Shown here: positions 7,186 to 56,183 of the stretch, one piece after another
How the letters are laid out: the number at the start of each line of letters is the position of its first letter
Numbering within the stretch: position 1 is the first letter of the stretch
NCBI GenBank assembly: GCA_020252645.1
Contig: JADCCN010000003.1
Span: forward strand, 186,001-250,000
DNA from: Methylobacterium sp.
GTDB lineage: Bacteria > Pseudomonadota > Alphaproteobacteria > Rhizobiales > Beijerinckiaceae
Direction of reading: 5' to 3'
Length of the DNA stretch: 64,000 nt
Notes under the pieces: model-generated
What the model saw: only the letters and a program-made list of their open reading frames with translations
The model's database searches: none
What the model was told of the DNA's origin: nothing
Made by a program: the position numbers and the translations under genes

Positions 7186-7998
7186 TCAGACCCTCATCCC
7201 GCCATCGATGAAGGCGCGCAGATCATCGAGGCTCGGGAAGCGGCGATCCACACCCTCGCCTTTGGCGGTCACCGAGCCATCGGAATACATGGTGAAACGC
7301 GTGCCGCCACTGTCATAGGCACCGACAACATCGAGCCTCTCCAGCGGAGCGAGTTCGGCTCTGGCTTCCGAAAGTCGCGCGAGATCCTCGTCATGGATGA
7401 GGCCCGGCATGGGAGGCGCGCGTTCGAAATCGGGCAACTTCGGAAGGGGCGGAAGGATGGGATCATCCTTCCTGCCGGCATCGGCCTTGCTCCCCCGCGT
7501 GGCCCGGGAGAGGGCGGCATCCCTGGAATCGTCCCCGGTCGCGGAAGCCTGTCCTGGCTCGTCCGGCAGCGGCGAGATCTTGAGCGGAGGTGATTTCAGT
7601 TCGGCGAAGAGGTCGCGCTCGAGATTATCGAGGATCCTTGCTTCGGGTATCGCGGACCGGTCGGCGTGCATGGCGCCACCCGGCGCCGCGCCGGCTGCAG
7701 CCCCGGCGAAAACGGGGGCAGCCGGGCGTGCGACGGCCGGCTCAACAACCGGCGATGCGGCATGTGGCTCCGGCGCCGCTGGCGGCAGCATCACGGCAAG
7801 CCGCAACGCATGGATTTCATGTGCGATCGCGCGGCCGACCGAAGCTAAAGCAAACAGGACGAGCGCGCTCGCGAAGAGAATGCTCGCGGCCACCATGTAG
7901 CTGTTTCCCAGATCGGTGGGGATGAGCTGCAAAGCCAGCCAGAACGCGGTAGCCGCCAGAAGAACCAGCAATCCGGCCCCGGCATGAATGAGCTTCAT
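7186..7998 (-). CDS. Unknown membrane-anchored protein with Pro/Ala-rich linker
   Basis: I do not recognise a family. The 270 residues open with two hydrophobic segments (about 7-25 and 35-57), which would anchor the protein in the inner membrane. A Pro/Ala-rich region (70-115) and a charged, probably disordered stretch follow. A small C-terminal domain (about 215-270) reads RLDVVGAYDSGGTRFTMYSDGSVTAKGEGVDRRFPSLDDLRAFIDGG, a two- or three-strand beta unit plus helix. The TMYSDGSVTA pattern recalls small cytoplasmic beta-hairpin domains in hypothetical alphaproteobacterial proteins. It converges on ptrB and is divergent from sodB. Confidence 0.75.
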   Translation of the reverse strand: MKLIHAGAGLLVLLAATAFWLALQLIPTDLGNSYMVAASILFASALVLFALASVGRAIAHEIHALRLAVMLPPAAPEPHAASPVVEPAVARPAAPVFAGAAAGAAPGGAMHADRSAIPEARILDNLERDLFAELKSPPLKISPLPDEPGQASATGDDSRDAALSRATRGSKADAGRKDDPILPPLPKLPDFERAPPMPGLIHDEDLARLSEARAELAPLERLDVVGAYDSGGTRFTMYSDGSVTAKGEGVDRRFPSLDDLRAFIDGGMRV

Positions 7999-8217
7999 GA
8001 TGCCTGCTCTCCCCGAACCCGAACGACGTATCCTTGAAAAATCAGACTAATTTCGGACATCAGGGTAAATTATTTCTTGCGATCGTCAAAATGGCGGCAC
8101 GAAACCCCGCTCGCGCGCATTGCCTTGGGGCCGGCGCGGGCCTATCTCTCGCCGTCTGGCGCTTCCGCCGGTGCATCCGCCGCCCCTCGCGGCCCGTCAT
8201 TCCTGAGGTTTCACACC

Positions 8218-8817
8218 ATGTCCTTCACGCTGCCGGATCTTCCCTATGCGCATGACGCGCTCCAGCCCTTCATGTCGAAGGAGACGCTCGAATATCATCA
8301 TGACAAGCATCACCTGGCTTATGTGAACAACGGCAACAACCTGCTGAAGGGCTCCGAATTTGAGGGCAAGACCCTCGAAGAGATCGTGATCGGCTCCCAT
8401 GGCAAGAATGCCGGCCTCTTCAACAATGCCGGCCAGCATTACAACCACATCCATTTCTGGAAGTGGATGAAGCCGAATGGCGGCGGCACGATCCCCGGCA
8501 AGCTCGAGAAGAAGATCATCGAGGATCTGGGTTCCGTCGAGAAGATGAAGGAGGACTTCATCCAGGCCGGCGTCACGCAGTTCGGCTCGGGCTGGAACTG
8601 GCTCGCGGTGAAGGACGGCCGAATCGTCGTGATGAAATCCCCCAACGGCGAGAGCCCGCTGGTGCATGGCGCCAAGCCGATCCTCGGCTGCGACGTGTGG
8701 GAGCATTCCTACTACATCGATTACCGCAACCGCCGGCCCGATTACCTCAAGGCCTTCGTTGATCATCTGGTGAACTGGGAATACGTGGCCGAGATGTACG
8801 AAGCGGCAGTGAAGTAA
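8218..8817 (+). CDS. sodB: Iron-type superoxide dismutase
   Basis: The enzyme dismutes superoxide to oxygen and hydrogen peroxide in the cytoplasm. The 199-residue product has all four metal ligands: H27 (EYHHDKHH), H77 (GQHYNHIHFW), D159 and H163 (CDVWEHSYYIDYR). The glutamine before the second ligand (Q73 in NNAGQHYNH) and the YIDYRNRRPDYL tail point to the Fe rather than the Mn form, though cambialism cannot be excluded. The longer open frame upstream has no SOD features; ATG 8218 with TGAGGT upstream gives the normal N-terminus SFTLPDLPYAHDAL. A strong terminator follows, so it is probably monocistronic. Confidence 0.96.
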   Translation: MSFTLPDLPYAHDALQPFMSKETLEYHHDKHHLAYVNNGNNLLKGSEFEGKTLEEIVIGSHGKNAGLFNNAGQHYNHIHFWKWMKPNGGGTIPGKLEKKIIEDLGSVEKMKEDFIQAGVTQFGSGWNWLAVKDGRIVVMKSPNGESPLVHGAKPILGCDVWEHSYYIDYRNRRPDYLKAFVDHLVNWEYVAEMYEAAVK

Positions 8818-8842
8818 GCCGCAACCAGGGCCAACGCGTTAG

Positions 8843-8872
8843 AAAACGCCGGGGGATCCCGGCGTTTTTTTT
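8843..8872 (+). terminator. Rho-independent terminator after sodB
   Basis: AAAACGCCGGG, loop GGAT, CCCGGCGTTTT make an 11-base-pair stem running into eight T residues, 26 bases after the sodB stop. It is one of the clearest terminators in the window. Confidence 0.93.
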
Positions 8873-8926
8873 GGTCTGGAGGACTGCGACGGGCGGCTCT
8901 GCGCGCCCCGCCCCCCGAGCCTTGCC

Positions 8927-9148
8927 TCAATGCCCGTGGGCATCCTCGTTGATGGTCACGGTCGGCATGTTGGAGAAATCCACCACGACCGGGGTCTTCG
9001 CCTTGATCAGCTGCGACTGATAGGTGCGGATCACGTGCTCGAGGCGGCGGAAGGCTTCCTCGTAGGCGGGCGTGCCCTTCTGGTCCTCGAAGGGCTTGAG
9101 GCAGAAGGTGATGATTTCGCGCGGGCGCTCGAAGCTCGAATTGGACAT
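8927..9148 (-). CDS. Small hypothetical protein, 73 residues
   Basis: I do not recognise the family. The product begins MSNSSFERPREIITFCLKPFED and has a central amphipathic helix (PAYEEAFRRLEHVIRTYQSQL) followed by a short beta-like end (TPVVVDFSNMPTVTINED). It has no membrane segment or signal peptide. The start is supported by AAGGGAACGGGGAAGG just upstream, although the frame stays open further left. Codon use matches its neighbours and the spacing to both flanking genes is normal, so I take it as real. It lies downstream of the DUF486 gene on the same strand and could be the last gene of that unit. Confidence 0.7.
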   Translation of the reverse strand: MSNSSFERPREIITFCLKPFEDQKGTPAYEEAFRRLEHVIRTYQSQLIKAKTPVVVDFSNMPTVTINEDAHGH

Positions 9149-9231
9149 AGCGGCCTTCCCCGTTCCCTTGAGATCTGTGTTCGTTGTGCAACCTGACCCG
9201 CCCCGCGTCAATCCGCCCTCCGTCGGGGAGG

Positions 9232-45667: not shown

Positions 45668-45768
45668 AGCATGCTGTGAAAAAGTGGAATCCGGTTTTTC
45701 ACAAAAAAGCATGCGATAACAATAAGAGAAGAGCATGATGTGCTTCCGTCTGAACACATCATGCTCTA
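45665..45768. repeat. Two palindromic elements starting at the rppH stop codon
   Basis: CTAGAGCATGCTGTGAAAAA begins at 45664 and includes the rppH TAG. The inverted partner TTTTTCACA...AAGCATGC closes a first hairpin with a GGAATCCGG core. A second palindrome, GAGCATGATGTG/CACATCATGCTC (12-base arms, about 45733-45766), follows and ends in TCTAG. Both belong to the CTAGAGCAT repeat group and may terminate transcription. Confidence 0.8.
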
Positions 45769-45962: not shown

Positions 45963-47339
45963 TCAGGTGTGCTGCTCGACGCTCAGCGCGGCATCGATGA
46001 TGTCCAGTGCCTCAAGCATCTGGTTTTCCGTGACTGTGAGCGGCGGCGTGAGCGTCAGCACATTGCCCATGGTCGTCTTGAACGAAAGTCCCGCATCCAG
46101 CGCGCGGTAAAGCACGGCTTCCGCGAGATCCCCCGCCGGTTCGCGGCTCTCCCGATCCGTGACGAGTTCCAGGCCGAGGAGCAGCCCGCGCCCGCGCACA
46201 TCGCCGATGCAGGCATGCTTCGCCTTCATCGCAGCCATGCGCTCCAGCGCCATGCGACCGACACGCGCTGCATTCTCGACGAGCCCCTCCTCCTCGATGA
46301 CCGCGATGGTCTCGATCGCGGCGGCGGCGGTCACGGGGTTCTTCTCATGCGTGTAATGCCCGAAGGCCCAGTCCTGCGCGACATCGAGATCCGCACGCGC
46401 GATCACCGCAGCAATGGGCAGGATGCCCCCGCCCAGCGCCTTGCCCACCACGAGGATATCCGGCTCCACGCCATCATGTTCGGCAGCGAACATGCGGCCG
46501 GTCTTGCCAAGGCCGGTGGGGATTTCATCGAAGATCAGCAAAGCGCCGCGTTTGTGGCAAGCCTCGCGCACGATTTTCCAGAAACCGGGCGGCGGAATGT
46601 AGGGCACGGCGCGGGCGGGCTCGGCGACGACGCAGGCCACATCGCCCTCGCGCGAGAGCACGTAATCCACCATCCGCGCGCAGGCCGCATGGCACAGGTC
46701 GAGCGGCGGGTGGCCCTCAGCATCGGTCCGGTAGCCATAGGCGCAACGGTAACATGCGAAGGGCGCGACATGCTCTGCCCCCGCGACCATCGGCGCGGCG
46801 GGGCCGGAGCGGAACAGCATTTCGCCGGAGAGCGCGGAGGCGCCTGTTCCGGCACCATGGAAGGCATCCCAGAAGGACAATGTCTTGAACCGCCCGGTCG
46901 CGGCGCGCGCGAGCCGCACGGCCACCTCCACCGCATCCGACCCGCCGGTGGTGAAGAGGCATTTCGAGAGCCGGCCCGGCGCGATCCGCCCGAGCTTTTC
47001 CGCAAGCTGGATGGAGCGCTCGCAGGTATAGCGGCGCGGCGCGAAGGGCAGTTCATCCATCGCCCGCGTGATCGCCGCCTTCACGCGGGGATGGCCATAG
47101 CCGATATGATGGACGTTGTTGCCATGAAAATCCATGTAACGCCGCCCCTGCCCATCCCAGATATGGATGCCCTCGGCGCGTCCGATGACGTTGAGGCAAG
47201 GGGTGGAGACGGATTGGCGCAGGAAATGGTGCGTATCCTTCGCGAGCATCGCCTGCGTTTCGGCATCCAGCCGCGTGGCCTGCCAGCGCGCCCGGCGCGA
47301 GGTGAGGTTGGTATCGCTCTCGGATTGCCCGACGCTCAT
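45963..47339 (-). CDS. pbfA: PbfA-like PLP enzyme ((R)-1-hydroxy-2-aminoethylphosphonate ammonia-lyase candidate), class III aminotransferase fold
   Basis: The 458-residue product is a class III PLP protein: YMDFHGNNVHHIGYGHPRVK, TTGGSDAVEVAVRLAR, LLIFDEIPTGLGKTGRMF with the PLP aspartate D271, and PLP lysine K300 in VVGKALGGGILP. A CYRCAYG...CHAAC block (C196, C199, C216, C220) is typical of some class III phospho-lyases. Generic annotation would be aminotransferase. The PbfA call rests mainly on being the last gene of the AEP operon, where PbfA acts on hydroxylated AEP to give phosphonoacetaldehyde and ammonia. The start overlaps the permease stop by four bases. A second AEP transaminase is the main alternative. 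Confidence 0.72.
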   Translation of the reverse strand: MSVGQSESDTNLTSRRARWQATRLDAETQAMLAKDTHHFLRQSVSTPCLNVIGRAEGIHIWDGQGRRYMDFHGNNVHHIGYGHPRVKAAITRAMDELPFAPRRYTCERSIQLAEKLGRIAPGRLSKCLFTTGGSDAVEVAVRLARAATGRFKTLSFWDAFHGAGTGASALSGEMLFRSGPAAPMVAGAEHVAPFACYRCAYGYRTDAEGHPPLDLCHAACARMVDYVLSREGDVACVVAEPARAVPYIPPPGFWKIVREACHKRGALLIFDEIPTGLGKTGRMFAAEHDGVEPDILVVGKALGGGILPIAAVIARADLDVAQDWAFGHYTHEKNPVTAAAAIETIAVIEEEGLVENAARVGRMALERMAAMKAKHACIGDVRGRGLLLGLELVTDRESREPAGDLAEAVLYRALDAGLSFKTTMGNVLTLTPPLTVTENQMLEALDIIDAALSVEQHT

Positions 47340-49018
47340 CGCTTCCGCCATGCCTGGTAGCGCGCGAAGACCAGCCGATCGAGCGCGAGATGCAGGAGCT
47401 TCACCGCCATGGCCGTGAAGACGATGCAGGTGGCCATCGCGGCGGCGGCGGCCACGGCACCCATCTCGTCCATATGGACGATGGCGATGGAGGCGAGCTT
47501 GGTCGTCGGGCCATAAAGGAAGATCACGGCCGAGACGGTCGTCATCGCATTCACGAAGAGATAAACAGCGATGTCGAGCACCGCCGGCGTCGAAATGGGC
47601 AAGGTCACGCGGCGGAAGGTCATCCAGAAAGGCACCTTCAGCGAGGCGGAGACGCTCTCGAATTCGGCATCGATCTGCTTCAGCTGGGTCACGGCAGTGA
47701 TATGCGCGACCGTATAGAAATGCGCGACCGTGTTGGCCACCAGCAGCGTCAGCGTGCCGTAGAAGATGTTCAGCGGGTTCCAGGGCGCATTCACGAAGAA
47801 CACATAGCCAAGGCCCAGCACCAGCCCCGGCACGGCCATGGGCAGCATCGCAAGAAAATGCACGAAGCCGCGAAGCGCTGGCGCGGGCTTGGTCTTTTCC
47901 ACCAGATAGGCGCCGATGAACACGATCGCCGTGCCGAAAATCGCGGTGAGGCCCGCCATCTTCAGCGAGGTGAGATAGGCGCCCCAGCCCTGTGGATCGA
48001 AATTGGCGAAGTTGTAGTTGTTCAGCGTGAAGGTGAGATTGTAGGGCCAGTAGCGGATGAAGCTCGCCCAGATCGCCACGCCAAGCATCCCGATCAGCAC
48101 CCCGCCGACCAGGAGGCAGAAGGCCAGCAGCATGAAGTCGCGCCTGGCATTGGCCTTCGGCTCATAGGGCACGGCGCGCGCCGAGAGCAAGGCCACCTGC
48201 TTCTTCTGCACCTGCCGGTCCACGAAGAAGGCGAAGATCGCGGGCAGGAGCAGGATGAGGCCCACCACAGCGCCCATCTCGAAATTCTGCTGGCCGACGA
48301 TCTGCTTGTAGGCGTCTGTCGCCAGCACGTTGAACTGCCCGCCGATCACCTTGGGGATGCCGAAATCGGTGATGACCAGCGTGAACACCACGAAAATCGC
48401 GCTGATCAGGCCATAGCGCGCACCCGGCAGCGTGACCGTGAAGAACACGCGGGATTTCGAGGTGTCCAGGGCCTCCGCGACCTCGTAGAGGCGGCCATCG
48501 GCGAGGCGCAAGGCCGTCACGAGGATCATCAGCGCGTGGGGGAAGCAATAGACCGCCTCCGCCAGCACGATTCCGATGGGGCCGTAGATGCTCGCGCCGA
48601 AGAGCCAGCTCTTCAGGAAGCCCTGATTGCCGAAGATGTAGATGAGCGAGATGGCCGAGAGCAGCGATGGCGCAAATAACGGCGTCATCGCCACGGCCAT
48701 GAACAGCCCGCGCCCGGGCATGCGGCTGCGCGTGAGCGCATAGGCATAGAGGAAGGCCAGCGGCACCACGATGAGCGCGACGAGGCTGGAGACCCAGATG
48801 GAGTTCCACAAGGAGGCCACGAGCGCCGGCGTGGCGATGTAGCGCGCGAAATTGGCAAGCCCCACGAACTGCCCGTTGCTGTTCTGCACGGATTTCGACA
48901 GCAGCGACCAGAGCGGCACCGCAATCAGCAGCACGAGAACGAAGGCCAGACCGGCGAGCAAAGCCGTCGCGACCCAAGCCTCGCGATCCCGCGTGAAGAA
49001 GGCGGAATTCACGCTCAT
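47336..49018 (-). CDS. phnU: 2-aminoethylphosphonate-type ABC transporter permease, two fused permease domains
   Basis: The 560 residues hold two BPD-type permease domains in tandem (about 15-270 and 290-560), twelve or so helices. The ATPase-docking EAA-like loops read EVAEALDTSKSRVFFTVTLPGA in the first half and ESVSASLKVPFWMTFRRVTLPIS in the second. A fused two-domain permease with an iron/putrescine-like fold is the arrangement of the second AEP transporter type (PhnS/T/U2). It overlaps the ATPase gene upstream and the pbfA-like gene downstream by four bases each. Confidence 0.88.
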   Translation of the reverse strand: MSVNSAFFTRDREAWVATALLAGLAFVLVLLIAVPLWSLLSKSVQNSNGQFVGLANFARYIATPALVASLWNSIWVSSLVALIVVPLAFLYAYALTRSRMPGRGLFMAVAMTPLFAPSLLSAISLIYIFGNQGFLKSWLFGASIYGPIGIVLAEAVYCFPHALMILVTALRLADGRLYEVAEALDTSKSRVFFTVTLPGARYGLISAIFVVFTLVITDFGIPKVIGGQFNVLATDAYKQIVGQQNFEMGAVVGLILLLPAIFAFFVDRQVQKKQVALLSARAVPYEPKANARRDFMLLAFCLLVGGVLIGMLGVAIWASFIRYWPYNLTFTLNNYNFANFDPQGWGAYLTSLKMAGLTAIFGTAIVFIGAYLVEKTKPAPALRGFVHFLAMLPMAVPGLVLGLGYVFFVNAPWNPLNIFYGTLTLLVANTVAHFYTVAHITAVTQLKQIDAEFESVSASLKVPFWMTFRRVTLPISTPAVLDIAVYLFVNAMTTVSAVIFLYGPTTKLASIAIVHMDEMGAVAAAAAMATCIVFTAMAVKLLHLALDRLVFARYQAWRKR

Positions 49019-50133
49019 GTCCGGGCGGGAAAGATGCGAAGGGCGCCAGCCGGCAATTCGGCGATCACCGCCTGCCCCGGCGCATAGGCGCGATCCTGCA
49101 TCACGTTGAAAGGCAGATCCGCGAGCAGGGTCAGCGGCGAGGCACCCTCGCCCTGAAGCGTCGCGCGCACGAAGGAACCGAGATATTCAAGCTCGGTGAT
49201 GCGCATCGCCAGCCGGTTTTCGCCAGCCGCGCCCTCCAAGAGGCGCACGGCCTCGGGCCGGAGGCCGATTTCCACCTTCTCTCCTGGAGCGAAGCCCGGC
49301 GCATCGGCGACGCGCAGGGCCTGGTCGCCCACGCGCACGAGGGCCTGCCCCTCCCTCACGCCCGAGAGGAAGGTCATCCGGCCCACGAAATCCGCGACGA
49401 AAGCCGTTTTCGGCCGGGCATAGACCTCCTCGGGGGTGCCGACCTGCTCGATCACGCCATGGTTCATCACCACGATGCGCTCGGCCATGGAGAGCGCTTC
49501 CTCCTGGTCATGCGTGACCATGATGGTGGTGACGCCAAGGCGGCGCTGCAGCGCGCGGATCTCTTCGCGAAGGCGCAGGCGCACGCGGGCATCAAGCGCC
49601 GAGAGCGGTTCATCGAGAAGCAGAAGCCCCGGCGAGGTCGCAAGCGCACGGGCAAGCGCCACGCGCTGCTGCTGGCCGCCCGAGAGTTGCGCGGGATATT
49701 TCATGGCCTGATCGGGCAGGCCGACGAGCGCCAGAAGCTCCGAGACGCGCGCGGCGATCATCTCGCGCGATTTCTTCTGGTTCACGAGGCCATAGCCCAC
49801 GTTATCCGCGACCGTGAGGTTCGGGAACAGGGCGTAGGACTGGAACACGATGCCGAAATCACGCGCCGAGGGCGGCGCGTTCGAGACATCCTTCCCGCGG
49901 AGCATGATATTGCCGCCCGTCTGCCGGTCGAGGCCGGCAATGGCGCGCAGGAGCGTGGTCTTTCCGCAGCCCGAGGGGCCGAGGAAGCAGACGAACTCCC
50001 CCTCGCCGATCTCGAGATCGATGGATTTCAGCGCCTGGAAGGCACCGAAGCTCTTCGTGAGGCTGCGGATGGACAGGAAAGCCCGTTCGGGCGCGCCGGG
50101 CGCCTCGGTTGTCATTGCGGCATGGTTCGGCAT
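49015..50133 (-). CDS. phnT: 2-aminoethylphosphonate-type ABC transporter ATPase
   Basis: The 372-residue product has Walker A GPSGCGKT, Q-loop FQSYALFPNLTV, ABC signature LSGGQQQRVALARAL, Walker B LLLLDEPLSALDA and the H-loop MVTHDQEEAL. A C-terminal TOBE-type domain (about 260-372) follows, as in the spermidine/iron ATPase group. It energises the adjacent permease. ATG 50133 follows a GGGGGG tract; ATG 50115 is an alternative. Open frame further upstream is not ABC-like. Substrate is inferred from the operon. Confidence 0.9.
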   Translation of the reverse strand: MPNHAAMTTEAPGAPERAFLSIRSLTKSFGAFQALKSIDLEIGEGEFVCFLGPSGCGKTTLLRAIAGLDRQTGGNIMLRGKDVSNAPPSARDFGIVFQSYALFPNLTVADNVGYGLVNQKKSREMIAARVSELLALVGLPDQAMKYPAQLSGGQQQRVALARALATSPGLLLLDEPLSALDARVRLRLREEIRALQRRLGVTTIMVTHDQEEALSMAERIVVMNHGVIEQVGTPEEVYARPKTAFVADFVGRMTFLSGVREGQALVRVGDQALRVADAPGFAPGEKVEIGLRPEAVRLLEGAAGENRLAMRITELEYLGSFVRATLQGEGASPLTLLADLPFNVMQDRAYAPGQAVIAELPAGALRIFPART

Positions 50134-50165
50134 GAGCCCCCCCGGAAGCGCGGAAACCGGAAAGT

Positions 50166-50195
50166 CCGGCATGCACATGGCATGCCGGGCCTTTT
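50166..50195 (-). terminator. Intra-operon hairpin between the binding-protein and ATPase genes
   Basis: CCGGCATGC and GCATGCCGG (nine base pairs, loop ACATG/CATGT) lie 17 bases past the binding-protein stop in the direction of transcription. The minus strand continues ACTTTCC, a poor T run, so it likely stabilises the upstream message or terminates only part of transcripts. Confidence 0.65.
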
Positions 50196-50204
50196 CCGTT
50201 TCGC

Positions 50205-51236
50205 TCAGCGCGGCGCGGCCTTGCTGTCGTAGCGCTTGGTCCATTCCGCGAGGATACGCTCGCGGTTCTCGGCCATCCAGGTGAAGTCGTTCTTCGCCAT
50301 CTTGGCCTCGGCATCGGCCGGGTAGTTCGGCGGGGCGCTCTTCACATCGGGATGGGCGACGAGGGCATAATACTTGCCATAGAGCTCGTTGGCCTTCCTT
50401 GTGGCCACCCAATCCGCCACCTTCTTCGCGGCGGCGAGGTTCCTGGTGCCCTTCACGATGGCCGTGGCTTCCATGTCCCAGCCCGCGCCCTCCTTCGGCA
50501 GGATGAGGTCGATCGGCGCGCCCTGCGTCTTCTCGCGCGCGCCGCGCATGTCGAAGCCGATGCCCACCATGCGCTCGCCCTTGGCGGCCTGCACGCAAGG
50601 CGCCGAGCCCGAATGGGTGTAGACGGCGATGTTCTCGTGCAGCTTGTCCATATAGGCCCAGCCGGCCTGCTCACCCATGATCTGCAGCCAGGCCGCCACC
50701 TTGAGATAACCCGTGCCCGAGGAGGCCGGGTGCGGCATCACGATCTTGCCCTTGAATTCCGGCTTCGTAAGATCCATCCACGAGGTGGGCGCTGCGACCT
50801 TTTCTTTCGCGGCTTCCACCGTGTTGAAGCAGACGACCGCGAGGAAGGCATCCATGCCGGTCCAGGTATAGGGGCCGGAGGTGTCGCGATAGGACGCCTT
50901 CAGAGCATCCGCACCCGCGGGCTTGTATTCCTCGAGCAGGTTCATCTTCTCGAAGAGCAGCAGGGAGGTCGCGGCGAGGCCCAGCACGATATCGGCGCGC
51001 GGGTTGTCTTTCTCGGCGAGGAAGCGCGAGGTGATGACGCCTGTCGAGTCACGCACCCAGGAAATTTCGACATCCGGCACATCGGCCTCGATGGCCTGCT
51101 TGAACGGCTGGAGCTGGTCGTTCTCCAATGCCGTATAGACCGTCACACGGGTGCGACCCTGCGCGTCTGCCGCGCTGCTCCACCCCATGGCCAGAACGAG
51201 GCCCATCGCCACGCCGGCCAGCCAACCCTTTTTCAT
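50205..51236 (-). CDS. phnS: 2-aminoethylphosphonate-type ABC transporter periplasmic binding protein
   Basis: The 343-residue product has a signal peptide (MKKGWLAGVAMGLVLAMGWSSAADA, cut after ADA). The mature protein begins TRVTVYTALENDQLQPFKQAI, the fold of iron/thiamine/AEP-type binding proteins, with ISWVRDSTGVITSRFLAEKDNPRADIVLGLA and PHPASSGTGYL as ligand-site blocks. AGGGAGA before ATG 51236 fixes the start. AEP as ligand is inferred from the flanking catabolic genes; ferric-ion binding is unlikely because no iron-ligand tyrosine pair is evident. Confidence 0.88.
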   Translation of the reverse strand: MKKGWLAGVAMGLVLAMGWSSAADAQGRTRVTVYTALENDQLQPFKQAIEADVPDVEISWVRDSTGVITSRFLAEKDNPRADIVLGLAATSLLLFEKMNLLEEYKPAGADALKASYRDTSGPYTWTGMDAFLAVVCFNTVEAAKEKVAAPTSWMDLTKPEFKGKIVMPHPASSGTGYLKVAAWLQIMGEQAGWAYMDKLHENIAVYTHSGSAPCVQAAKGERMVGIGFDMRGAREKTQGAPIDLILPKEGAGWDMEATAIVKGTRNLAAAKKVADWVATRKANELYGKYYALVAHPDVKSAPPNYPADAEAKMAKNDFTWMAENRERILAEWTKRYDSKAAPR

Positions 51237-51356
51237 TGTATTCTCCCTGTCCTCTTGAAGAGCGCTCCCCGCTCCTCGGGCTCCGTCATTCATTGCAGCG
51301 CAAAGACCGTTCCATGACAAGCCGAAACGGTATCTGCGCCTGGTTATTCAGGCTTC

Positions 51357-52808
51357 TCATGCGCTCCAGGGCATCGACCAGGTGCGAACATTGGTGAAGC
51401 TCTTCATCGCTTCCCACACGCCCTCCTTGTAGCCGAGGCCAGAATCCTTGATGCCGCCGAACGGGCTCATCTCGATGCGATAGCCAGGCACCTCCCACAC
51501 ATTGACCGTGCCGACATCGAGTTCCGCGATGAAGCGCTGGATGTAGTCGATGCGGTTCGTACATATTCCGGAAGATAGGCCATAGGCCGTGGAATTCGAG
51601 ATGCGGATGATCTCATCCATGTTGTCCGGCACGCGGATGACCGGGATGACCGGACCAAAGGTTTCCTCATGCACGAGTTCGGCCATGAAGGGCACCTTGT
51701 CCACCACGGTCGGGTGAAAGAGCGCGCCCTCGCGCGGGTGGCCGTAGAGCACCTCGGCGCCCTGGCTTTCCGCATCCTTCACACGCGCTTCGAAAAGCTT
51801 CGCGGCAACCTCATTGATCACCGTGCCGAGATCGACCTCGGTATCGGCGGGGTTGCCGCATTTGAGTTTTCTCGCCTTCTCGACAACGCGCTTGACGAAC
51901 TCATCGGCAACGCTTTGCACACAGAGAATGCGCTTCACGGCCGTGCAACGCTGGCCGGAATTCTTCGTGGCACCCTGCACCGCGAGTTCGGCCGCCTTGT
52001 CGAGGTCGGCATCCTCCATGACGATCAGCGGATCATTGCCGCCAAGTTCGAGCACGATGCGGCGATAGCCCGCCTTCTCGGCAATATACTTGCCGACCCG
52101 CACCGAGCCCGTGAACGTGATGAGGTCCGCCGCCGGATCGGTGATCATCGCGTCACCCATGGTGCGCGGATTGCCGGTGACGACCGAGAGCATTTCCGGG
52201 GGCAGGCCGGCCTCGTAGAGCACATCCGCCAGCGCAAGCGCCGTGAGCGGGGTGAGTTCGGTCGGCTTCAGCACCAGGCGATTATTGGTGGCGATCGCCG
52301 GGGCGAGCTTGTGGCTCACCATGTTCAGCGGGTGGTTGAACGGCGTGATCGCCGAGATCACGCCCAGCAGCGGCACGCGGGTGGTGAAGATCTTCCGCGC
52401 CTTGCCGTTGGGGGAGATGTCGCAGGAGAACTGCTCGCCATCATCCTTGATCGCGAGTTGGCCCGCGAAGGACCAGACATCATAGGCGCGGGTGGATTCG
52501 TAGATCGCATCCTTCCAGCACAGACCCGATTCCGCCGAGATGAGCCGCGCGAATTCCTCCCGCCGGTCGGCCAGCAATTGCGCGGTCTTCTGCAGGATCT
52601 GCTGGCGCTCGTAGCGCGAGAGCTTCGGCTTGAAGTCCCTCGCCTTCCGGAAGGCCTCGCGCACATGCTCGGGCCGCGCCATCGGCACGCTGCCGACGAG
52701 CGAGCCGTCATAGGGGTTCTTTACCTCGATCACGTCATCGGTGGAGACGGGTTTGCCCGCGATGCGCATCGCTTCCTTGCGCGCCGGCAGCTTTGGCAAG
52801 ATCGGCAT
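51357..52808 (-). CDS. phnY: Phosphonoacetaldehyde dehydrogenase PhnY
   Basis: PhnY oxidises phosphonoacetaldehyde to phosphonoacetate with NAD. The 483-residue ALDH has N158 in [10 protein letters not shown]254 in [10 protein letters not shown], and catalytic C288 in [13 protein letters not shown]. The [15 protein letters not shown]-terminus and [16 protein letters not shown]-like region are those of ALDHs next to phnA and phnW. It lies three bases after phnA, so the order phnW-phnA-phnY is a tight unit. Without the neighbours the protein would only be called an aldehyde dehydrogenase. Confidence 0.9.
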
Positions 52809-52811
52809 GGC

Positions 52812-54050
52812 TCAGGCCTCCACGCAATTGAGGGCCACCCAGAAGGCATCGAAGGTCCGCAGGCGATGCCCCGCGGGGATCGCGAGCTTCCGGTTCGAGA
52901 TCATCGGCACGCGCTGCTCGGTGAGGCCCCCATGCGAACGCAACGGCTCCGTGAGGCCCGAAAGATCGTGTTTCTCCGGTGCCGTGCCGAGCGTGACATG
53001 CCGGGTCGAGATCACCACGAGATCGCCGAGGCGATCGGGCGGCAATTCGAACTCGGCGCAAGCCACTTCGCGCGTCATGGCCACCTGCACGCCCGGAATG
53101 AGCTCCAACCGGGCGATCAGCGCCGCGCGATCCGCGCCTTCCGGGAGATAGACCGTCGCGAAAGAGCCGAGCGCGCCGTGATGGACCACGTAAGGATCGG
53201 TGATCGGCAGGATGACACGCGCCTGGCCCCTGCCCAGCCAGCTTTCGAACAGCGGCTCGAGATAGACGACGCTGGGCGTTTTATCCGCGTGGTGCTTGTC
53301 GTTCATGCCGTGATCGGCGGTCGCGAGGATCGTGTATCCCAGAGCGTCGAGACGGCCGAGATAGCGATCGATCATCGCGTAGAAATCATTGGCGATTTTC
53401 GTGCCGGGCGCGGTCTTGTGCTGGATGTAGTCGGTCGTCGAGAGATACATCAGGTCAGGCTTGAACGTTTCCGCAAGCTTGGCGCCCGCCGCAAACACGA
53501 ATTCCGAAAGCCCCGCCGAATAGACATCCGGCACGCCCATGCCAACGAAATCGCAGACCTTCTCGATGCCGTTCTCGCTCCGGTTGGCCTTGTCGGCCTT
53601 TTCCGAGGAGAAGGCGATGGCCGTGCCCTTCGAATAGTCGAGGCCCTTCGAGAGGAGGAGCCGCAGCTTGTCCTTCGCCGTCACCATCGCGACCTTGAAA
53701 CCTGCCTGCTGCACGCCGGCGAGAATGGTCGGCACCCTGAGAAAGGAGGGGTCGTTCATCATCACTTCTTTGCCCGTCGCCGGATCGTAGAAGAAATTGC
53801 CGGCGATTCCATGCACTTCAGGGGGGCGACCCGTGATGATCGAGAGATTGTTGGGGTTCGTGAACGAGGGGATCACGCATTCGGCGATCATGCTCGCGCC
53901 CCCGCGCATCATCCGCGCGAAATTGGGGGCGACGCCGGCCTCGACCGCCTTCTCGATATAGCCCGGCTCGGAGCCATCGATGCAGATGACGACCGTGGGG
54001 GTTTTCGGGGTGGCGTAATCGCGGCCGTTGACGGAAACTGCAGCCATCAT
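52812..54050 (-). CDS. phnA: Phosphonoacetate hydrolase PhnA
   Basis: PhnA splits phosphonoacetate to acetate and phosphate; it is a di-zinc enzyme of the alkaline-phosphatase superfamily. The 412-residue product has D25 in ICIDGSEPGY, the nucleophile T64 in VIPSFTNPNNLSIITG, a YLSTTDYIQHKTAPG block with Asp/His ligands, and ATADHGMNDKH near the second zinc site. These are the family metal motifs. It starts five bases after phnW ends. The length matches known PhnA. Confidence 0.95.
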   Translation of the reverse strand: MMAAVSVNGRDYATPKTPTVVICIDGSEPGYIEKAVEAGVAPNFARMMRGGASMIAECVIPSFTNPNNLSIITGRPPEVHGIAGNFFYDPATGKEVMMNDPSFLRVPTILAGVQQAGFKVAMVTAKDKLRLLLSKGLDYSKGTAIAFSSEKADKANRSENGIEKVCDFVGMGVPDVYSAGLSEFVFAAGAKLAETFKPDLMYLSTTDYIQHKTAPGTKIANDFYAMIDRYLGRLDALGYTILATADHGMNDKHHADKTPSVVYLEPLFESWLGRGQARVILPITDPYVVHHGALGSFATVYLPEGADRAALIARLELIPGVQVAMTREVACAEFELPPDRLGDLVVISTRHVTLGTAPEKHDLSGLTEPLRSHGGLTEQRVPMISNRKLAIPAGHRLRTFDAFWVALNCVEA

Positions 54051-54054
54051 CCCC

Positions 54055-55197
54055 TCACTTCACCGGAACCTGCACGCCCATCTCGGCGAGCACATCGCGC
54101 ACGGCGGAAACCGCGCCTTCCATATCCTTCTCGTAGAGCCGGCCGATGCAGCCGATGCGGAAGGAATCCGCCACCGTCAGCTTCCCCGGATAGATCACGT
54201 AGCCCCGGTCCTTCAGCGCGTCATAGAAGGTCTGGAACACGAATTTCGGGTCTTTGGGCATGTGGAAGGTGATGATGATCGGGGCCTGAAGCGCATCGGG
54301 CAGCAGGGTGCGGAAACCGAGCCTGCGCATGCCGTCGATCAGCACCTTGCCGTTGCGGGCATAGCGTCCGCCGCGTCCCGGCTGGCCGCCTTCCGCGAAG
54401 AATTCCATCAGCGCCTGATGGAAGGAAACGATCACATGGATCGGCGGCGTGAAGCGATATTGGCCGGTCTTCTCGAAATTCGCGGCCTGATCATGAAGGT
54501 CGAGCACGAGGGTTGTGGCATTGCCCCTCGCCCCCGCGAGGGTCGATTTCCGGCAGAGCACGAAGCCGAGGCCCGGCACGCCCTCGATGCACTTGTTGGA
54601 GGAGGCCGCAATCGCATCCGCATGCGCCTTCTCGGCGTCGAGCGGCAAGGCGCCGAACGCGCTCATGGAATCGATGAGGTAGGTCTTGCCATACTTCCTT
54701 GCCAGCGCGCCGATCTCGTGGACCGGGTTCAGGATGCCGCTGGTGGTTTCGCAATGCACCGCGAAGATGTGGGTAATGTTCTTTGAGCGCTTCAGGATGC
54801 CCTCGATCTTCTTCAGGTCCGGCGGGGTATCCTCCGGGGTCTCGTAAACCACCGATTTCCGCTTCGCGATGTCGAGGATGCGCCTGGCGCGGTGGCCATA
54901 GGCGCCGTTGATCAGCACCAGCACCCGGCCCTTGGCGGGCACGAGGCTCGTGAGCATCGCCTCCACGGCGAAGGTGCCCGAGCCCTGCACGGGCACCGTG
55001 ACGAAATTCGCGCCGTTTACGATCTCCGGCAGACGCTCGAGAACCTCGCGGTTGATCTTCAGGAAGGTCGCGTCGCGGCTTCCCCAGTCATGAACCATCA
55101 CCTCCTTCACGCTTTTCGCGGTGGTCAAAGGGCCGGGGGTGAGCAGCAGGGGATCACCGGTTTCGGAGGCGGCGCGGTTCAGGCGGGAAGAGGGCAT
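54055..55197 (-). CDS. phnW: 2-aminoethylphosphonate:pyruvate transaminase PhnW
   Basis: PhnW converts AEP and pyruvate to phosphonoacetaldehyde and alanine. The 380-residue fold-type I PLP enzyme shows LLLTPGPLTTAKSVKEVM, DWGSRDATFLKI, VQGSGTFAVEAM, the PLP aspartate D176 in LIDSMSAFG and the PLP lysine K202 in ASSNKCIEGVPGLGF. These are hallmark blocks of the PhnW/serine-pyruvate transaminase group. ATG 55197 has GGAG six bases upstream; ATG 55227 is too far from any Shine-Dalgarno. It is the first gene of the operon, divergent from a LysR regulator. Confidence 0.95.
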   Translation of the reverse strand: MPSSRLNRAASETGDPLLLTPGPLTTAKSVKEVMVHDWGSRDATFLKINREVLERLPEIVNGANFVTVPVQGSGTFAVEAMLTSLVPAKGRVLVLINGAYGHRARRILDIAKRKSVVYETPEDTPPDLKKIEGILKRSKNITHIFAVHCETTSGILNPVHEIGALARKYGKTYLIDSMSAFGALPLDAEKAHADAIAASSNKCIEGVPGLGFVLCRKSTLAGARGNATTLVLDLHDQAANFEKTGQYRFTPPIHVIVSFHQALMEFFAEGGQPGRGGRYARNGKVLIDGMRRLGFRTLLPDALQAPIIITFHMPKDPKFVFQTFYDALKDRGYVIYPGKLTVADSFRIGCIGRLYEKDMEGAVSAVRDVLAEMGVQVPVK

Positions 55198-55251
55198 GGA
55201 AGGCTCCGGGCAGGCATTTCGATTCATGCTAGCCGAGCGCGCTCCTATTCG

Positions 55252-55269
55252 TCCAATATGTGTTTTGGA
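55252..55269. promoter_or_regulatory. Candidate LysR operator, TCCAA-N8-TTGGA
   Basis: TCCAA (55252-55256) and TTGGA (55265-55269) are perfect inverted arms around TATGTGTT, located between the divergent phnW and lysR starts. This position and symmetry match LysR-type regulator boxes (T-N11-A class). No second site was located with certainty. Confidence 0.5.
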
Positions 55270-55316
55270 TGACGGTCATAGATTTTCTCGATATGCTGTC
55301 GAGCAAAAGGTGGGTC

Positions 55317-56183
55317 ATGTCGATCACCGGGTTCAGGGCCTTTCATGCCGTGGCGCGCGCCGGCAGCTTCACGCGGGCGGCGGAAGCGCTGGCGCTGAGC
55401 CAGCCCACCCTTTCGAGCCAGGTGAGGCTGCTGGAAGAAAGGCATGACGCTGCGCTTTTCGACCGCAAGGGGCGCGGCGTGGCCTTGACGCCTTTGGGCC
55501 AGAAACTGCTCGACATCACCACGCGCCTCTTCGCGGCGGAAGAGGAAGCAAGAGCCCTGCTCGAAGGCGTGCGCACCGTGCGGCAAGGGCATCTGAGGCT
55601 CGCGGCGGACAGCGCGACCCATGCCATGCCGCTGCTGGCGCGGATGCGCGATCGGGCGCCCGGCCTCACCTTCAGCCTGAGGATCGGCAATTCCTCGACC
55701 GTGCTCGATGACCTGCTGGAATACCGTGCCGATATCGCAATCACCGCGCGCCCGAGTTCCGATCCGCGATTCGCCATCCGGCTCTTGCGGCGCGACCGCG
55801 TGGTCGTCTTCGCGCCGGCGGGGCATCGGCTGGCGAACAAGGGAACGGTGCCGCTCCTGGCGCTGGCGGGCGAGGATCTGGTGATCCGCGAGCGCGGCTC
55901 GGTGACGCGCGAGGTATTCGAGACCGCGCTGGCCGAGCGCGGCATCACGCCGGGCATGCTGATCGAGGTCGAGGGCCGCGAGAGCGTGCGCGAGGCCGTG
56001 GCGGCGGGCTTCGGCCTCGGCATCGTGTTTGAAAGCGAAATGCCCCCGGGCGACAGTTTTCGCGCCATCGCGATTGCGGATGCGCCCCTCGATGTCGCGG
56101 AATACGTGGCCTGCCTCGCCGCCCGCGAGCGCGTCGCCATGGTCCGCAGCTTTCTCGATCTTGTTTCGCAGGAGCCGGGCTGA
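55317..56183 (+). CDS. LysR family regulator, likely of the AEP operon
   Basis: The 288-residue product has the N-terminal winged helix-turn-helix (FRAFHAVARAGSFTRAAEALALSQPTLSSQVRLLEE) and a periplasmic-binding-like effector domain (about 90-288, LRLAADSATHAMPLLARMRDRAPGLTFSLRIG). ATG 55317 follows AAAGGTGGG; a longer frame from 55260 would place non-HTH residues in front. Divergent placement from phnW with a shared 119-base region and a palindrome there suggests it activates phnW in response to AEP or a related phosphonate. Its relation to a named regulator such as AepR/PhnR is not settled. Confidence 0.9.
   Translation: MSITGFRAFHAVARAGSFTRAAEALALSQPTLSSQVRLLEERHDAALFDRKGRGVALTPLGQKLLDITTRLFAAEEEARALLEGVRTVRQGHLRLAADSATHAMPLLARMRDRAPGLTFSLRIGNSSTVLDDLLEYRADIAITARPSSDPRFAIRLLRRDRVVVFAPAGHRLANKGTVPLLALAGEDLVIRERGSVTREVFETALAERGITPGMLIEVEGRESVREAVAAGFGLGIVFESEMPPGDSFRAIAIADAPLDVAEYVACLAARERVAMVRSFLDLVSQEPG

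Follow-up and report, generated by a model that had tools for sequence, protein, structure and literature searches.

The stretch of Methylobacterium DNA analysed here (64,000 nucleotides, hereafter 'the window') contains, at positions 45963..56183, a cluster of eight genes that, judged from its sequence, is very likely a catabolic operon for two phosphonates, 2-aminoethylphosphonate (AEP) and (R)-1-hydroxy-2-aminoethylphosphonate (R-HAEP), with a gene for the lyase PbfA in last place. In the proposed scheme an ATP-binding cassette (ABC) importer would bring in AEP, which PhnW would convert with pyruvate to phosphonoacetaldehyde by transamination; PhnY would oxidize the aldehyde to phosphonoacetate, and PhnA would hydrolyse that product to acetate and phosphate. 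PbfA, with its pyridoxal phosphate (PLP) cofactor on Lys300 (458-residue form), would remove water from R-HAEP, and the enamine so formed would hydrolyse to ammonia and phosphonoacetaldehyde, entering the same route at PhnY. R-HAEP may be imported by the same ABC importer, and the LysR protein would induce the operon. The last gene thus very probably encodes an R-HAEP ammonia-lyase supplying phosphonoacetaldehyde to PhnY and PhnA, a reaction that is predicted to take place in the Methylobacterium host.

Seven of the eight genes lie in the same direction on the minus strand, and a LysR-type gene diverges from them on the plus strand. Their products were matched to the curated NCBIfam models, each with its own cut-off, as follows:

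54055..55227, minus strand: phnW, 2-aminoethylphosphonate--pyruvate transaminase (390 residues; TIGR02326, 442 bits against a cut-off of 400.8)
52812..54050, minus strand: phnA, phosphonoacetate hydrolase (412 residues; TIGR02335, 526.2 bits against 407.55)
51357..52808, minus strand: phnY, phosphonoacetaldehyde dehydrogenase (483 residues; TIGR03250, 792 bits against 635.65)
50205..51236, minus strand: AEP importer binding protein, PhnS2 type (343 residues; TIGR03261, 474 bits against 392.75)
49015..50133, minus strand: AEP importer ATPase, PhnT2 type (372 residues; TIGR03265, 509.2 bits against 457.7)
47336..49018, minus strand: AEP ABC importer fused permease, PhnU2 type (560 residues; TIGR03262, 798.3 bits against 593.25)
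45963..47339 (or 47351), minus strand: pbfA, class III PLP gene (NF049939, 640.6 bits for the 462-residue form against 525; PbfA clade; PbfA-type pocket residues)
55317..56183, plus strand: divergent LysR-type regulator (288 residues, or 307 if it starts at GTG 55260; TIGR03339, 299.6 bits, under the cut-off of 341.1)

The cut-offs are thus exceeded by seven of the eight proteins, that is, by the products of all the structural genes, the LysR protein being the exception, and these identities lie far outside what chance would give. An earlier note on this DNA, made from the sequence alone, had read the cluster as a hydrolytic route from AEP to acetate and phosphate, and this holds, with all three enzymes of the pathway (PhnW, PhnY and PhnA) above their equivalog cut-offs; the binding protein, ATPase and permease of the importer that NCBIfam names PhnS2T2U2 are likewise all above theirs. 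PhnY contains the motifs ELGG (at 254) and GQRC (at 285), to both of which we attribute catalytic roles, and PhnA contains five motifs that we take to form its metal site. The genes are separated by 4 bases (phnW-phnA), 3 (phnA-phnY), 120 (phnY-binding protein) and 71 (binding protein-ATPase); the ATPase and permease genes overlap by 4 bases, and the permease and PLP genes by 4 or 16, depending on whether the latter starts at 47339 or 47351. The starts at 51236, 50133 and 47339 were picked within longer open reading frames and agree with the spacing in the earlier note, whose cluster is real and whose spacing was correctly read, as the reading frames and NCBIfam scores show (its 4-base overlaps require the start at 47339). 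An ATPase 11 residues shorter scores almost identically (TIGR03265, 509.4 bits). This spacing suggests a single transcript for all seven genes, and the importer is probably of the AepXVW type, going by name and context.

The identity of the last gene was approached through family models, phylogeny and individual residues. In a census of the window's family, 22 of 149 genomes passed the PbfA model NF049939, with scores of 573-664 bits, and the next values were 428 and 425, followed by 286 or less; none of 14 control genomes passed. Relatives were taken as the best 80 of 518 loci. Trees were built from 27 of these 80 loci, hand-chosen for spread, together with four references. Vibrio alfacsensis (L085, annotated as phnW - class III gene - phnX) and Vibrio sp. 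THAF190c (L086, with the same order by tblastn) served as stand-ins for V. splendidus PbfA; the others were Azospirillum lipoferum 4B (L087), a species whose PbfA is listed in PMC8154272, and Shinella zoogloeoides (L088), listed with pbfA in PMC12366243. The A. lipoferum gene was provisionally equated with the published PbfA_A.lip of PMC8154272 by way of neighbouring accession numbers.

In a tree of 39 rows, the 32 PbfA rows, the Vibrio stand-ins among them, fall on one side of a branch with support of 100/99, a clean value that depends on leaving out Devosia and four long rows. In a larger tree of 45 rows, which has additional outgroups and two proteins from Devosia, the 34 PbfA and Devosia rows also stay together (100/100); the Devosia pair forms a long branch nested among the PbfA rows, at a fork with A. 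lipoferum supported at 92/58, and several outgroup branches are very long. The earlier note had proposed such a tree as the check on its assignment, and the window protein is found inside the PbfA clade, apart from other class III enzymes, on one branch with the Vibrio, A. lipoferum and Shinella proteins. Proteins from two metagenome-assembled genomes labelled Methylobacterium (L005, L006) share 94% identity with the window protein; its next relatives, at most 76% identical, include proteins from Acetobacteraceae, Hyphomicrobiales and Paraburkholderia.

Residues were compared in the numbering of the 458-residue form, with Escherichia coli GabT as reference and 84 PbfA-like rows (the 80 loci plus the four references). 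In GabT, R141, E211 and R398 hold gamma-aminobutyrate (GABA) or glutamate. The corresponding window residues are A163, V245 and T429, and Q242 is replaced by P274; the PLP lysine (K300) and aspartate (D271) are kept. None of the 84 rows has the GabT residue at the positions of R141, E211 or R398, and all 84 share K300, D271, R102, A163, P274, H331 and E332. Position 245 is V in 78 rows, T in 4 and I in 2, and position 429 is T in 82 and Q in 2. More broadly, conservation reaches 98% or more of 85 rows at 100 of the 458 window positions. At 28 of these positions the residue is shared with none of the five E. coli class III enzymes used for comparison, with six cases depending in part on alignment gaps. 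The earlier note's suggestion that this is PbfA rather than a generic aminotransferase is borne out by the NF049939 score, the clade and the pocket residues.

Observations of several kinds weigh against this interpretation. The last gene also passes NF004755, 'aspartate aminotransferase family protein' (591.3 bits against a cut-off of 467), and this older name would suit an ordinary class III omega-transaminase acting on AEP or a related amine as a back-up to PhnW. Such an enzyme would have the same PF00202 fold, and among solved structures the closest are isoleucine 2-epimerase, other racemases and dialkylglycine decarboxylase, with GABA transaminase ranking lower. However, the residues with which GabT is understood to hold its substrate are lost, the operon already has PhnW, and V. 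splendidus PbfA showed no AEP transamination (PMC8154272). NF004755 is an earlier label for the PbfA family, because V. alfacsensis PbfA itself scores 908.9 bits on this model and 739.4 on NF049939. On the strength of the residues, the NF049939 score and the clade, a generic transaminase was rejected, and we consider it highly improbable.

A second difficulty is distance: identity between the window protein and the Vibrio stand-ins is only about 45%, and V245 and T429 of the window correspond to T and Q in V. alfacsensis. The protein might accordingly be a lyase of the PbfA fold that acts here on some 1-hydroxy-2-aminophosphonate other than R-HAEP, and the related cassette described below, with H, N and G at 163, 245 and 429, indicates that the family does diversify. 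Against this, the window protein is identical to A. lipoferum PbfA at 24 of 24 compared positions and scores well above the PbfA cut-off, so that a different substrate has, in our estimate, only a very small chance of being correct. The PbfA literature cited here gave no instance in which R-HAEP was assayed with a PbfA from an alphaproteobacterium. The entry of R-HAEP through the window importer is likewise uncertain: in PMC8316502, AepX of Stappia is reported to be highly specific for AEP, with its authors suspecting some promiscuity, and the question of how R-HAEP enters the cell is left open there.

The remaining contrary points come from gene neighbourhoods. Among the 80 loci, under BLAST thresholds that we set ourselves and that may miss divergent copies, pbfA shares the examined stretch with phnW, phnA and phnY in 19 and with phnW and phnX in 5, and in 44 that stretch contains none of phnW, phnA, phnY and phnX. 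For the 41 loci flanked by 9 kb or more on each side, the corresponding numbers are 14, 4 and 15, and the linkage between pbfA and the phn genes is loose or partly unseen. Of the 61 loci that lack phnA in the examined stretch, 28 had their whole genomes searched. PhnA is above its cut-off elsewhere in 17 of these, and PhnX is above its own in 9 of the other 11 (adjoining pbfA in four, L023, L056, L066 and L068). Of the last two, the genome of L024 has a truncated PhnA match where a contig begins (239 bits) and that of L034 has scraps of 25 bits, neither of them decisive. An enzyme of a route that consumes phosphonoacetaldehyde, PhnA or PhnX, linked or not, is thus present in 26 of the 28 genomes, which counts in favour of the PbfA reading. 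Neither was above its cut-off in any of the 14 control genomes; these controls and the window's genus (for PhnA only) are the whole of the comparison for genomes without PbfA, which also tells against the argument from co-occurrence.

Genomes with pbfA and no nearby phnWAY or phnX include those of L007, L011, L016 (Paraburkholderia), L059 and L080 (SAR324), among others. Where the phn genes were not seen together, the commonest non-phn neighbour cluster of pbfA occurred in 4 of 28 hand-chosen loci, with an open-reading-frame picker of our own that missed pbfA itself in 4 of the 28. A gene of approximately 372-427 residues recurs beside phnX and pbfA in L023, L056, L066 (8057-9175) and L068; it is perhaps a divergent transaminase, and the window PhnW matched nothing in those four loci.

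The related cassette mentioned above, in the order LysR - binding protein - ATPase - permease - PbfA-like enzyme, was encountered on two Devosia plasmids and in two genomes of the window's family, at the following loci:

L089:2801-9221, Devosia, with the PbfA-like enzyme at 7971-9221
L090:2809-9188, Devosia (importer and LysR genes annotated in pieces)
L152:7439-13836, genome G055
L153:2804-9215, genome G005

Its enzymes are 42-44% identical to the window PbfA and, in the three that were scored, reach 419-428 bits against the cut-off of 525 (G055, 428; G005, 425.1). In L089, all four scored parts fall under the AEP importer and PbfA cut-offs (186.5, 378.6, 297.7 and 418.7 bits). All four enzymes carry H, N and G at 163, 245 and 429, and keep K300, R102, P274, H331 and E332. 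No phnW, phnA, phnY or phnX was found in the four cassette stretches of 16-17 kb; elsewhere in their genomes, G005 has PhnA and G055 has PhnX. The cassette is possibly an importer and lyase for a related phosphonate.

Within the window's own genus (17 genomes), PhnA is above its cut-off in 6 genomes and PbfA in 3 of those 6. Four loci were inspected (G117, G183, G094 and G178), leaving aside G182, which is 78% complete. G117 has the whole operon with an intact pbfA. G183 has the operon with a damaged pbfA (L150:10095-11332), which is split over two frames, is missing about 140 bases and, at 453.5 bits, falls below the cut-off. In G094 and G178 (L148, L149) the products of the other six structural genes are 79-95% identical to those of the window, with LysR at 76 and 86%, and no pbfA DNA is detectable after the permease genes. 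An eamA neighbour is common to all four loci, and a second binding-protein gene stands behind LysR in G117, G183 and G178 (it was not found in G094). It is an evenly balanced proposition that pbfA is an optional last module of an AEP operon whose other genes are stable, and that the use of R-HAEP is quickly gained or lost among close relatives; broken copies of pbfA in draft genomes may be assembly errors, and gain and loss are indistinguishable from these loci. If the proposition is true, these close relatives would form a natural experiment on the role of R-HAEP as a nutrient and on a possible change in binding-protein specificity that goes along with pbfA. Two relatives have a second LysR-like gene, so named by eye, in the interval from the operon end to a nudix gene (L149:10241-11170 and L151:11940-12881); the window has approximately 295 bases between the operon end and its nudix gene.

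Other phosphonate routes were sought in the window's own genome, which is 99.74% complete. PhnJ of the carbon-phosphorus (C-P) lyase is present, and PhnX gave only weak matches (at most 28.8 bits), which were set aside. TIGR03276 (Phn-HD), which we presume to cover PhnZ, has no match in the whole genome. In Table 1 of PMC8154272, none of the clusters holding pbfA also has phnZ. The best PbfF match, on another contig, is 39% identical to a Shinella reference whose own PbfF identity is provisional, going by its place and family, and was read as belonging to the other 2-hydroxyacid dehydrogenases. Use of (S)-1-hydroxy-2-aminoethylphosphonate (S-HAEP) is not predicted, because there is no pbfF among the operon's genes and this best match in the genome is unlinked.

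The LysR protein falls short of the cut-off of the phosphonate LysR model TIGR03339, as listed above, and its next best family scores 143.4 bits; its position makes it the likely regulator of the operon. ATG 55317, preceded by AAAGGTGG and with the profile match beginning just inside it, is more likely to be its start than GTG 55260. A scan for sigma-70 promoters was of no use (1 found against 1.5 expected), and one for terminators returned 15 against 7.6 expected. One putative RNA feature was located inside the operon:

50166..50188, minus strand: stem-loop in the 71-base gap (50134-50204) between the binding-protein and ATPase genes, with a 9-pair stem and a loop of 5

The folding energy of this gap is -33.9 kcal/mol (z -2.17), a value matched by 5 of 200 shuffles, and the arms of the stem-loop also appear in the terminator scan, on the plus strand at 50164-50190. 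The stem-loop is possibly an mRNA feature that would raise the level of the binding protein above that of the rest. The 120-base gap before the binding-protein gene (51237-51356) folds at -42.5 kcal/mol (z -2.53), better than 200 of 200 shuffles. A 15-pair stem-loop at 45730-45767, between pbfA and the convergent nudix gene (rppH-like, named by eye), is possibly a terminator.

The window operon is of a known kind, in an arrangement that has been in print since 2021 and with a family already named in NCBIfam. The earlier note had recommended it as a case on which to test the reassignment of 'aminotransferase' genes in phn loci; the reassignment to PbfA is supported, and the recommendation is out of date, having been anticipated by PMC8154272 in 2021 and by NCBIfam. 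As a single instance the operon matters little, with its enzyme, pathway and combination all described. Its value lies in the intact, broken and absent copies of pbfA within one genus, which offer matched genomes for asking if R-HAEP is a nutrient and how it enters the cell.

V. splendidus PbfA eliminates water from R-HAEP to give ammonia and phosphonoacetaldehyde, with a published kcat/KM of 12,300 per M per s (PMC8154272, 2021). In the phnWX-pbfA system of that organism, PbfA likewise feeds phosphonoacetaldehyde into a hydrolytic route, the difference being that the window uses PhnY and PhnA where V. splendidus uses PhnX. Closer in enzyme content are the phnWAY clusters in Table 1 of the same paper (Zangelmi et al. 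2021), 17 of 75 of which have pbfA, with Roseovarius nubinhibens among those named; compared by enzyme set rather than gene order, they have the same PhnW, PhnA, PhnY and PbfA, and the window adds a further genome. The clusters with both pbfA and pbfF described in Ruffolo et al. 2025 (PMC12366243) have the phnWYA-pbfA core in common with the window, and differ from it in their pbfF. PMC8316502 (2021) reports that Stappia stellulata makes PbfA together with AepX and PhnWAY on AEP, and that most Alphaproteobacteria have a single upstream LysR, as the window does; the Stappia genome also has a C-P lyase, like the window's genome with its PhnJ. The Stappia aepXVW-phnWAY operon places an AEP importer beside PhnWAY just as the window does, and the two importers are probably equivalent, going by name and context.

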